43,834 bases of DNA from Deltaproteobacteria bacterium (GTDB lineage Bacteria; Desulfobacterota; GWC2-55-46). Positions 15,888 to 29,686 of this stretch are shown here, piece by piece. The position numbers and the translations under genes are program-made. Every line of letters begins with the position of its first letter. The first letter of the stretch is position 1. Under the pieces are notes generated by a model. The model worked only from the letters and a program-made list of their open reading frames with translations, was not told the origin of the DNA and ran no database searches. Location of the stretch: the NCBI GenBank assembly GCA_016212705.1, contig JACREU010000078.1, positions 1-43,834 of the forward strand, in the 5' to 3' direction.

Positions 15888-17261
15888 CTATCTCCCCTTC
15901 TCTATCTTCAATTCCTTCATCCTCCTCCAGAGCGTCGTCCTGCTCATCTTAAGGAGCAGGGCGCACTCGCTGTACTTCCATCCGGTTTCATCAAGGGCGT
16001 TAAGTATTACCTCCCTCTCAAACGCCTTCAATGGCTCAGGCTCCCGTATCGAGCCGCGTAGCGCCCCCCTGCCCTTGAGCTCCTGTATGTCCTTCGGGAA
16101 GTGCTCAGTGGAGAGCGTCTTACCCTGGCAACGCACGAAGGCGTGCTCGATGACGTGCTCAAGCTCCCTGATGTTCCCGGGGTAGTCGTACTCCATCAGC
16201 AGTTCCATCGCGTTGGGGGAGACGTTCGTTATCCCCATGCCCATCTCCCGGTTGAACTTCTCGATAAAGTGCCTGACAAGCAGAGGTATGTCTTTTTTTC
16301 TCTCACGGAGCGATGGGAGTTGTATGGGGACTATTTTAAGCCTGTAATAGAGGTCTTCCCTGAACTCCCCCCTCCTTACCTCAGCCTTCAAGTCCTTGTT
16401 CGTGGCCGCGATGACGCGGACGTTTACCTTTATCGTCTTCGTGCCGCCTACGCGCTCGAATTCGCCTTCCTGGAGGACGCGGAGAAGCCGGAGCTGGGTG
16501 TGCGGTGTTATGTCGCCTATCTCATCCAAAAATATCGTCCCCTCGTCGGCCATTTCGAACCTGCCGAGCTTGTCGGCGATAGCGCCTGTGAAGGCCCCTT
16601 TTACGTGGCCGAAGAGCTCGCTCTCAAGGAGGCCTTCGGAGAGCGCCGCGCAGTTGACCTTTATGAGAGGCCCGTTAGAGCGCGGTGAGTTGTGGTGTAT
16701 GGCGTTCGCTATGAGCTCCTTGCCTGTCCCGGTCTCGCCCTCTATCAGGACCGTCGCCTTTGTCGGCGCGACTTCTTTCAAGAGCTCGAAGACCTCGTGC
16801 ATCTTGTGGTCCTTGCCGACGACGTTCTCAAAGGAGTACTTTCCCTTGAGCTCGTCCTTCAATTCCTTTATGAGAGAAACGTCCCTGAATATCTCTATGC
16901 CGCCGATGACGTTGTCGTTCTTGTCCTTAAGGAGCGCGGTATTGATGGAGAGCGTGACCTTCCTGTCGCCGTTCTCGAAAACAGCCTCGTAGTTATATAA
17001 GTGCTCTCCGGTCTTGATGGTTGTGTTTATCAGGCAACCGAATGTGCAGGCAGAGTGGCCCATGACGTCGCTGCACTTCGCGCAGTTAAGGAGTTCGTCG
17101 GCCCCGGCCCTCCCCAGTATCTCCTTTGCCGCCCTGTTCACAAAGAGTATCTTGTGGTTCAGCCCTATGACAACTACCCCGTCGGCTATGCTGTTCAGGA
17201 TCGCGTCGCTGTTCAAGCTTATGAGGTTATCTTCGTTGTTGTTTACGTCAGACGCTTCCAT
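15888..17261 (-). CDS. Sigma-54-dependent activator, PAS-AAA+-Fis, with a Cys-rich PAS loop
   Basis: A 457-residue enhancer-binding protein. A PAS domain (about residues 20-130) carries four cysteines at 60, 63, 72 and 76, a possible metal, heme or Fe-S redox site. The AAA+ domain has Walker A GETGTGKE (175-182), the sigma-54-contacting GAFTGA loop (222-227) and DEIGD. The C-terminus is a Fis-type helix-turn-helix (YSECALLLKMSRTTLWRRMKEL region). No receiver domain is present, so it is probably triggered through the PAS domain. GGAGG lies 7-8 nt before the ATG. It has its own sigma-70 promoter and lies directly beyond the terminator of the sigma-54-driven tiny-peptide operon, which is its most obvious target. 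Confidence 0.93.
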   Translation of the reverse strand: MEASDVNNNEDNLISLNSDAILNSIADGVVVIGLNHKILFVNRAAKEILGRAGADELLNCAKCSDVMGHSACTFGCLINTTIKTGEHLYNYEAVFENGDRKVTLSINTALLKDKNDNVIGGIEIFRDVSLIKELKDELKGKYSFENVVGKDHKMHEVFELLKEVAPTKATVLIEGETGTGKELIANAIHHNSPRSNGPLIKVNCAALSEGLLESELFGHVKGAFTGAIADKLGRFEMADEGTIFLDEIGDITPHTQLRLLRVLQEGEFERVGGTKTIKVNVRVIAATNKDLKAEVRRGEFREDLYYRLKIVPIQLPSLRERKKDIPLLVRHFIEKFNREMGMGITNVSPNAMELLMEYDYPGNIRELEHVIEHAFVRCQGKTLSTEHFPKDIQELKGRGALRGSIREPEPLKAFEREVILNALDETGWKYSECALLLKMSRTTLWRRMKELKIEKGR

Positions 17262-17293: not shown

Positions 17294-17322
17294 ATTATAT
17301 GGCTCTCCCCCTGAAAAATCAA
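17294..17322 (-). promoter_or_regulatory. Sigma-70 promoter of the sigma-54 activator gene
   Basis: Minus strand TTGATT (17322-17317), a 17-nt spacer and a perfect TATAAT (17299-17294), about 33 nt before the activator ATG. The same two hexamers with the same spacing precede the DUF1858 gene. Confidence 0.6.
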
Positions 17323-17429
17323 CGGCAAATGTTTCATTTAAGGAACACTTGTTGCATTTTAGAGCAATATAAACAAAAATCAGGTATTTTTGGCAAGGTC
17401 GGGAAAAATAACAATTTTTAAGCAAAGAA

Positions 17430-17468: not shown

Positions 17469-17555
17469 AGAGCGTTTTGAGGAGGGTGAGTTGATGGGAT
17501 TGATTGCGGGGTCTTATGCAAACGGGCCCAGCCGTCAGGCCCGCGTAAACGCTCT
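17469..17555 (-). other. Structured 3' region between peptide gene D and the terminator
   Basis: A perfect 9-bp outer pair (AGAGCGTTT at 17469-17477 with AAACGCTCT at 17547-17555) encloses a 6-bp hairpin (17523-17528 with 17538-17543). The outer arm covers the stop codon of the last tiny gene. This could be a stability element, a small RNA processed from the 3' end, or a control structure of a type I toxin-like mRNA. No function is proven. Confidence 0.35.
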
Positions 17556-17637
17556 ATCTCACCACCGCCGCTATTATCGCCGTCACTATCGCCAGGTGGG
17601 CGGCCGCTTCTACAATCTGAAAGAATCTCTGTCTCAT
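17554..17637 (-). CDS. Tiny membrane peptide D (27 aa), last gene of the sigma-54 operon
   Basis: ATG at 17637, TAG at 17554-17556. A near-ideal ribosome-binding site, AAGGAGGT, lies 7 nt before the start, which is strong evidence for translation of so short a frame. The peptide has a basic N-terminus (MRQRFF), then Glu10 at the edge of one helix (AAAHLAIVTAIIAAVV) and a final Arg. Its helix core HLAIVTAIIAAVV aligns with NLAIIVTIVSAVF of the lone peptide at 26.4 kb, with six identical positions in thirteen. It lies 89 nt after gene C and is followed by a structured region and terminator. No family is recognised. It may be an inner-membrane accessory peptide or a toxin-like peptide. Confidence 0.75.
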   Translation of the reverse strand: MRQRFFQIVEAAAHLAIVTAIIAAVVR

Positions 17638-17726
17638 GATATTTACCTCCTTCGTTTGTTACAGTGACCATTATACATGGCCAATATTAAGGCCTCGTTA
17701 AAGGACGAATACTTTTTCGCGGTCCG

Positions 17727-17870
17727 TCAACCTATGACACCGCCTGATTGAAGAAGGGTCATCGAGACAAGGGCGAGTATGCCGAGGCCGAGTGATACCG
17801 CCTCCATCCAAAGTATCCGTCCCTTCATCATCTTCTCCAGCGTCCTCATGTGCCCGGTCAGCGCCCTCAT
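17727..17870 (-). CDS. Tiny membrane peptide C (47 aa) of the sigma-54 operon
   Basis: ATG at 17870 overlaps the TGA of peptide B (ATGA), so translation is probably coupled; stop TGA at 17727-17729. The first 19 residues are basic and probably cytoplasmic (MRALTGHMRTLEKMMKGR). One hydrophobic helix follows, from about residue 19 to 40 (ILWMEAVSLGLGILALVSM), with Glu23 at the same relative place as in the other peptides. The tail is short and Gly-rich. It is the longest of the set and the only one with a clear amphipathic N-terminal extension. No family is recognised. Confidence 0.7.
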   Translation of the reverse strand: MRALTGHMRTLEKMMKGRILWMEAVSLGLGILALVSMTLLQSGGVIG

Positions 17871-17959
17871 GACAACGCAAGCCTCGATATGAGCGTCGCC
17901 GCCAGGATGCTCATGAATATCGCTATTATTTCAATCGTCCCTATCCTGTACTTGTGCAT
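17867..17959 (-). CDS. Tiny membrane peptide B (30 aa) of the sigma-54 operon
   Basis: ATG at 17959, TGA at 17867-17869. AAAGGAG lies 6 nt before the start. The basic N-terminus (MHKYR) is followed by a single hydrophobic helix with Glu10 near its start (IGTIEIIAIFMSILAATLIS). The positive N-terminus predicts an N-in orientation. It begins 21 nt after the stop of peptide A and overlaps peptide C by 4 nt. No family is recognised. Confidence 0.75.
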   Translation of the reverse strand: MHKYRIGTIEIIAIFMSILAATLISRLALS

Positions 17960-17980
17960 ATTTGTCTCCTTTCTCACTGA

Positions 17981-18073
17981 TTAAGCTACAACGACGAGGG
18001 GGCCTACACCCATGATCCCCGCCATTATGATGACCGATACCTCTATCAACAACTCCAGAGCCCCTATCGTCAC
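17981..18073 (-). CDS. Tiny membrane peptide A (30 aa), first gene of the sigma-54 operon, GTG start
   Basis: GTG at 18073, TAA at 17981-17983. GGGGAGGT lies 7 nt before the GTG, a strong ribosome-binding site. The peptide is almost entirely hydrophobic (TIGALELLIEVSVIIMAGIM, then GVGPLVVVA) with Glu7 and Glu11 and no basic residue. Its start is about 40 nt after the predicted sigma-54 transcription start. It could insert as one helix, or be too hydrophobic to act alone and need partners B-D. No family is recognised. Confidence 0.7.
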   Translation of the reverse strand: MTIGALELLIEVSVIIMAGIMGVGPLVVVA

Positions 18074-18126
18074 TTTGTCCACCTCCCCTGATTGCACTCT
18101 ATTAACACCAGCCTGCATTCTTTATT

Positions 18127-18142
18127 TGCATAAATGGTGCCA
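18127..18142 (-). promoter_or_regulatory. Sigma-54 (-24/-12) promoter of the tiny-peptide operon
   Basis: Read on the minus strand the site is TGGCACCATTTATGCA. The GG and GC pairs are exactly 12 nt apart, and the match to TGGCAC-N5-TTGCA fails only at the first T of the -12 box. The transcription start would lie near 18115, about 40 nt before the GTG of peptide A. The activator encoded just downstream has the GAFTGA loop needed to use such a promoter. Confidence 0.8.
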
Positions 18143-18305
18143 AAGAACCCTGCTGACCATAACTATTTGTTTTTATTGCTATATTTAGAGGCAGGCCATT
18201 TCACATACCTTATGCTATATTTCAAAAATGAAAAAAAAAACAGGATTATTTCGATAAAATCAATAAAATCAGCATATTACGTAATATTTTCAAAAAAGAA
18301 ACATT

Positions 18306-18338
18306 TTTCACCCATGAAACAAAGCCTCATGGGTGAAA
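18306..18338. promoter_or_regulatory. Perfect inverted repeat, candidate enhancer site for the sigma-54 activator
   Basis: TTTCACCCATGA (18306-18317), a 9-nt spacer, then the exact complement TCATGGGTGAAA (18327-18338). It sits about 190-225 bp upstream of the predicted sigma-54 start, where Fis-type activators usually bind. It is not needed as a terminator, because the DUF1858 gene already has one at 18375-18401. Confidence 0.55.
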
Positions 18339-18374: not shown

Positions 18375-18401
18375 AGGGGCAGGCTTATTAAGCCTGCCCC
18401 T
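18375..18401 (-). terminator. Rho-independent terminator of the DUF1858 gene
   Basis: Perfect 12-bp stem AGGGGCAGGCTT / AAGCCTGCCCCT with a 3-nt loop, 31 nt after the DUF1858 stop. On the minus strand a short T-rich run (TTCATTTTA) follows. Confidence 0.7.
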
Positions 18402-18432: not shown

Positions 18433-18657
18433 TCAGACTTTTGCCTCGTCCGACTTCGCGGCCTCGATCAACTCGCCCACGAACATGTTGACGTCGGTTG
18501 AGTGCATCGCGCACGCCATTGATATAGGCTCACCGCCGAATGCGGGACATGTGAAGCACCCTGAGCCAAAATGCTTCGAGAATACCGCCTTGGTAGCCGG
18601 CCACCTCGTCGTTACTTCTCCGGTGGTCATGTCGCCAGTTATGCTTTCCGCAGACAT
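18433..18657 (-). CDS. DUF1858 domain protein
   Basis: A 74-residue soluble protein. Cys34 and Cys37 are in GSGCFTCPAF and a third cysteine is at 49 (SMACAMH), the usual pattern of DUF1858 proteins, which resemble the N-terminal part of ScdA/RIC-type proteins and often go with anaerobic redox metabolism. AAGGAGG lies 5 nt before the ATG. It has a sigma-70 promoter (18712-18740) and its own terminator, so it is a single-gene unit. The function of the family is not established; a metal or Fe-S related role is plausible. Confidence 0.85.
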   Translation of the reverse strand: MSAESITGDMTTGEVTTRWPATKAVFSKHFGSGCFTCPAFGGEPISMACAMHSTDVNMFVGELIEAAKSDEAKV

Positions 18658-29645: not shown

Positions 29646-29686
29646 CGCGGCATATTATTAATACCAGGTATTAATAATATACCGCG
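29646..29686. repeat. 41-nt palindrome between convergent genes
   Basis: 20-nt arms (29646-29665 and 29667-29686) around a single central base, with one mismatch. The outer five pairs are GC and the inside is ATATTATTAATACC. It could act as a bidirectional transcript end, though no T-run follows. Alternatively it is a protein-binding site or repeat. Confidence 0.5.

Follow-up and report, generated by a model that had tools for sequence, protein, structure and literature searches.

The DNA analyzed here is a 43,834-nucleotide stretch (hereafter, the window) from the 1.98-Mb assembly of a Deltaproteobacteria bacterium. It hosts a DUF1858 gene, an operon of tiny peptides and the gene of a candidate sigma-54 activator, all with the minus strand as coding strand. 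The AT-rich region between the DUF1858 gene and the peptide operon contains a sigma-54 promoter, short palindromes and IHF-like sites. In the order of minus-strand transcription, the features of the locus are:

18433-18657, minus strand: DUF1858 gene (hybrid-cluster-associated disulfide domain), which stays beside the module described below in much of the window's family
18375-18401, minus strand: intrinsic terminator of the DUF1858 gene (-22.9 kcal/mol), whose stem has a counterpart in the corresponding position in relatives
18306-18338, no strand assigned: the reported 33-bp dyad, made of site 1 and an outer degenerate site, with a perfect symmetry that is specific to the window
18325-18338, minus strand: fourth, outer site of degenerate sequence, TTTCACCCATGAGG, which supplies the rest of the dyad and has counterparts in same-genus genomes only
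18306-18319, minus strand: candidate activator site 1, TTTCATGGGTGAAA, a perfect TTTCAN4TGAAA and one arm of the dyad, conserved in position in relatives
18288-18301, minus strand: candidate activator site 2, TTTCTTTTTTGAAA, one mismatch, 18 bp from site 1, conserved in relatives
18267-18279, plus strand: IHF-like site AATCAGCATATTA, located between sites 2 and 3 in inverted orientation with respect to the promoter and differing from WATCAANNNNTTR at one position
18220-18233, minus strand: candidate activator site 3, TTTCATTTTTGAAA, a perfect copy at a distance of 68 bp from site 2, conserved in relatives
18160-18172, minus strand: IHF-like site AAACAAATAGTTA, one mismatch, approximately 50 bp upstream of +1
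18126-18144, minus strand: -24/-12 sigma-54 promoter TTTGGCACCATTTATGCAA, with GG-N10-GC geometry
17981-18073, minus strand: peptide 1, 30 amino acids, GTG start, GGGGAGG ribosome site, MTIGALELLIEVSVIIMAGIMGVGPLVVVA, no match in Pfam or NCBIfam
17867-17959, minus strand: peptide 2, 30 amino acids, MHKYRIGTIEIIAIFMSILAATLISRLALS, no match in NCBIfam
17727-17870, minus strand: peptide 3, 47 amino acids or shorter, no family match in Pfam or NCBIfam
17554-17637, minus strand: peptide 4, 27 amino acids, MRQRFFQIVEAAAHLAIVTAIIAAVVR, near-identical in same-genus loci
17330-17347, minus strand: probable autoregulatory operator TGTTCCTTAAATGAAACA, matching at 11 of 12 positions and adjoining the activator's sigma-70-type promoter upstream
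17294-17322, minus strand: sigma-70-like promoter of the activator gene, TTGATT-17-TATAAT
15888-17261, minus strand: candidate activator with a Cys-containing PAS domain, a sigma-54 AAA+ domain and a Fis-type HTH (Pfam PF00158, PF25601, PF02954 and PAS)

The peptide operon (17554-18073, minus strand) is composed of four tiny hydrophobic open reading frames of 27 to 47 amino acids, of which three have good ribosome sites. None of these reading frames matched a Pfam or NCBIfam family, and similar tiny peptides are found in many relatives. The product of 15888-17261 has the hallmarks of a sigma-54 activator, with matches to PF00158 and PF02954 and a GAFTGA loop recognizable in the alignment. Its HTH recognition region (SRTTLWRRMK) is nearly unchanged among orthologs, and cysteines 63, 72 and 76 of the PAS domain are invariant across 18 of them, which hints that the activator may sense redox or metals. 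It scored below the curated cut-off of all NCBIfam equivalogs shown (PspF, NorR, NifA, NtrC and others) and, since it belongs to no named equivalog among these, its binding specificity can be deduced only from linkage. Equivalents of the operator at 17330-17347 are present at 10 or more of 12 positions in 16 of 22 loci, compared to 0.35% of shuffles. Its conservation beside the activator's promoter suggests autoregulation, and the activator probably regulates its own gene through this operator.

The original prediction singled out a perfect 33-bp inverted repeat with arms 9 nt apart, approximately 190-225 bp from the predicted start of the peptide operon, as the enhancer of its sigma-54 promoter. 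The repeat is indeed there: TTTCACCCATGA-N9-TCATGGGTGAAA occupies 18306-18338, with arms (18306-18317 and 18327-18338) complementary at 12 out of 12 nt around a 9-nt spacer. Its location also agrees with the prediction, because the -24/-12 promoter at 18126-18144 puts +1 near 18116 and hence the dyad approximately 190-222 bp upstream of this inferred start. Inverted repeats with 12-nt arms and a gap of up to 12 nt were seen in 4 out of 3,000 dinucleotide shuffles of the 314-nt intergenic stretch, so that the dyad is not due to chance, although its rarity by itself is not overwhelming. In the whole window, comparable repeats have a mean of 0.05 per shuffle. The window has several further such repeats, some of them terminator-like, and a perfect AT-rich inverted repeat (ATATTATTAATACCAGGTATTAATAATAT) lies at 29652-29680.

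The dyad did not stand as a functional unit. No orthologous locus has it in this form, not even within the same genus, and its perfect symmetry is unique to the window's genome among the loci compared. When we searched the 1.98-Mb assembly for further copies of the 33-bp dyad, tolerating up to three mismatches, we recovered a single occurrence, the dyad itself.

What the original prediction overlooked is that the 14-bp palindrome at 18306-18319 recurs at 18288-18301 and 18220-18233. The three copies, starting at 18306, 18288 and 18220, share the consensus TTTCA-N4-TGAAA (extended, TGTTTC-N6-GAAACA). They are centered near -197, -179 and -111 relative to the inferred promoter start, and thus form an array of repeated dyad sites approximately 80-200 bp upstream of the promoter, as in sigma-54 enhancers. 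The exact TTTCAN4TGAAA occurs three times in the 1.98-Mb assembly, and two of these copies fall inside the 100-bp stretch considered here. The array scores 29 out of 30, a value equaled by none of 3,000 shuffles (maximum 23). In the genome search for the pattern of sites 1 and 2, only the zero-mismatch rows were informative, together with the profile model; the version with two mismatches was discarded as too permissive, with controls as frequent as matches.

When two copies of a palindrome lie next to each other, they inevitably form an inverted repeat. The reported dyad corresponds to site 1 plus an outer copy. Judged from its sequence, the dyad is two adjacent palindromic sites, the outer of which is degenerate and retained by close relatives alone. 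Counterparts of the outer site were found only in the same-genus genomes G001, G003 and G004, as TTTCA-N5-TGAAA or TGGAA located 20 bp out, and other genera lack it.

The -24/-12 element at 18126-18144 is conserved in relatives, where an equivalent TTGGCAC..TTG lies 74-88 bp from site 3. The genome encodes rpoN (TIGR02395, 410 bits) and an IHF-beta protein that scores above the NCBIfam cut-off; a second HU/IHF-like protein scores below the cut-offs, and a third gene of the HU/IHF family is also present. Allowing one mismatch at most, we found WATCAANNNNTTR in the interval from site 3 to the promoter in 16 of 23 modules, for the most part at one position; the opposite strand gave 2 of 23, and shuffles 9%. 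In inverted orientation and with the same tolerance, it lies in the interval from site 2 to site 3 in 14 of 23 modules (opposite strand, 2 of 23; shuffles, 9%). The presence of WATCAANNNNTTR sites between enhancer and promoter, as at IHF-assisted promoters, is thus supported by conservation, with one mismatch in each of the window's copies. DNA bending had been ascribed to A-tracts; the conserved IHF-like sites would explain it better.

Activator orthologs were found in 22 relatives (61-98% identity, some fragmentary). Array, IHF-like sites and promoter (together, the module) adjoin nearly every ortholog, ahead of genes for tiny membrane peptides. Conservation of site 1 (18306-18319), along with sites 2 and 3, extends over several families. 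The spacing between sites 1 and 2 and between sites 2 and 3 is 18/68 with small variation in the window's family (f1), 17/51 in locus L047 and 16/67 in loci L048-L050; by family, sites 1 and 2 are spaced by 18 in f1, 17 in f2 and 16 in f8. The best array scores upstream of orthologs range from 25 to 29 out of 30 in 21 of 22 loci (22 in L051), compared to a shuffle maximum of 23 and to 18-20 upstream of paralogous activators. The peptide gene is divergent in L048-L050, and it is precisely in these loci that array and promoter are directed away from the activator, which indicates that the array belongs to the peptide promoter.

Since the arrays used for the alignment were chosen by motif search, finding the sites themselves conserved is in part a circular result. 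The positions of promoter and IHF-like sites were not used in this choice, yet they aligned, and both they and the held-out tests are free of the circularity. A model built on 12 modules (R2) recovered held-out modules of other genera and families as well as unlinked loci, with E-values from 1e-25 to 5e-5; at 14 loci of paralogs or distant homologs, it returned no match below E 0.1. With a model derived from all 23 modules (E <= 1e-11), the module was detected in 22 of the 23 genomes that have the ortholog and in 1 of the 36 that lack it (P-value ~6e-14, Fisher test), a comparison whose weight lies in the absence from other genomes, since most positives were in the training set. Some assemblies are incomplete: G022, where the module is present and the activator was not detected, is 74% complete. 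This co-occurrence agrees with the proposal that the neighboring Fis-type activator is the likely binder, and we predict it to be so. The sequences of the sites, their spacing, conservation and linkage to the activator, and the presence of the rpoN and IHF-beta genes are established.

A profile search returned a single strong module in the window's own genome, namely the one described here. Elsewhere, modules also precede other genes. In L207, an unlinked module lies ahead of a second peptide operon with its own copy of the activator. In L087 (genome G001) and L088 (genome G004), the full enhancer-promoter module precedes a DedA-type gene (VTT domain), after which comes an MscS-type gene that includes a cNMP-binding domain. 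Modules in L208, L209, L211 and L212 are upstream of small exported proteins, and the three exported-protein sequences scanned, from L209 and L212, matched no Pfam family. One protein of L212 (1474-1962) has internal repeats of the form YRNxHTQESFxAALQD, and a related short open reading frame is found in L209 (185-800). Four weaker matches outside the class, obtained in a phylum-wide model search (E 1e-7 to 1e-9), were not counted because they lack TTTCAN4TGAAA arrays; some have TGTTGC-type palindromes. In two loci from other classes of the phylum (L218 and L219), TGTTGC/GCAACA-type palindromes with a similar layout lie upstream of TGTGGCACGG..TTGC promoters, and L219 has an activator region of 42% identity nearby.

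On the minus strand, the dyad would also form an RNA hairpin of -20.6 kcal/mol, flagged as terminator-like, and could act as a second terminator or an attenuator downstream of the DUF1858 gene. We consider this very improbable. The DUF1858 gene has its own terminator, as originally proposed, and does not need the repeat to end its transcript, because the conserved -22.9 kcal/mol structure at 18375-18401 recurs in relatives and precedes the dyad. The tail after the dyad stem (AATGTTTC) is poor in T, the hairpin of same-genus genomes falls to -9 to -11 kcal/mol, and elsewhere the hairpin is absent while the DNA palindromes are kept. The dyad was thus rejected as an intrinsic terminator, since the stem is present, but the T tail is weak and the RNA structure is not conserved.

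The palindromes might instead be operators of another regulator, either a repressor or a different Fis-type activator, since related genomes have several to many homologous sigma-54 activators and distant activators of the phylum may use similar TGTTGC-type palindromes. This, too, is improbable: the module tracks this ortholog and not the paralogs, the same operator is found ahead of the activator gene itself, and a different regulator would leave both the co-occurrence and the autoregulatory site unexplained. A further possibility would add to the three-site array rather than replace it, namely that the 33-bp dyad is a species-specific unit of high affinity, with the outer site cooperative with site 1. 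All four closest genomes have a TTTCA-containing site 19-20 bp out and the 12-nt arms are perfect in the window; nevertheless, the window's outer site departs from the palindrome at two positions, its counterparts in relatives have N5 spacing, and it is not conserved beyond the genus. We regard such a unit as conceivable but rather unlikely.

Taken together, the region 18160-18338 is very probably the enhancer of the promoter at 18126-18144, to be bound by the product of 15888-17261 at sites 1-3 with IHF-type bending. The enhancer claim of the original prediction hence survives, with the 33-bp dyad no longer its unit; the missing dyad upstream of orthologous operons, named in advance as evidence against the proposal, counts against the dyad only. 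From the sequences we infer protein binding, bending, activation and a signal as follows. The activator would bind as dimers at the three TGTTTC-N6-GAAACA copies, and an IHF-type protein would bend the DNA at the two conserved sites, bringing the assembled activator to the sigma-54 RNA polymerase. ATP hydrolysis by the activator would then cause opening of the promoter from which the tiny membrane peptides are transcribed. The activator probably also controls its own gene, acting via the operator at 17330-17347.

The module belongs to a known class, the sigma-54/bEBP/IHF enhancers, and the example itself is new. In the Psp system of enterobacteria, expression of small membrane proteins depends on the sigma-54 activator PspF, which acts from upstream sites, and on IHF. 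The locus in the window would resemble it in this arrangement. The two differ in that the activator described here scores below the PspF cut-off and has a PAS domain absent from PspF; moreover, its targets have no family in common with Psp proteins in the searches made.

A closer layout is that of the Desulfovibrio vulgaris orp1/orp2 promoters, which were studied experimentally and are controlled by DVU2106, sigma-54 and IHF (PMC3897727). In the parts of that study considered here, the shared features are an adjacent sigma-54 activator with palindromic sites, IHF sites between the palindromes and the -24/-12 promoter, and a sigma-70 promoter of the activator gene; the divergent layout resembles that of L048-L050. 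The targets there are the orp operons instead of tiny membrane peptides, and the same parts describe no counterpart of the fixed 18/68 three-site array. A comparative reconstruction in Desulfovibrionales reported short palindromes of Fis-type activators upstream of sigma-54 promoters, including three motif groups of the form TGT-N9/11/12-ACA (PMC4641369). TGTTTC-N6-GAAACA formally falls into this broad class as TGT-N12-ACA, whereas the survey concerns another lineage and other regulators, and we found neither this array nor the peptide operons in it. In the open-access literature, we found no description of the operator motif or of these peptide operons.

The modules at DedA and MscS-type genes suggest a membrane-related signal. 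Tentatively, and with less than even confidence, the activator and its three-site array may define a previously undescribed regulon for envelope stress or redox. Such a regulon would be an analog of Psp without being related to it, and it would yield tiny membrane peptides as well as, in certain species, DedA, cNMP-binding MscS and small exported proteins. The locus also illustrates that a striking dyad can arise as a by-product of adjoining palindromic sites. A lone repeat is here turned into a searchable regulatory module, with an operator motif, a fixed geometry and a probable regulator, and this makes a regulon of uncharacterized tiny membrane peptides findable and testable in uncultured lineages.
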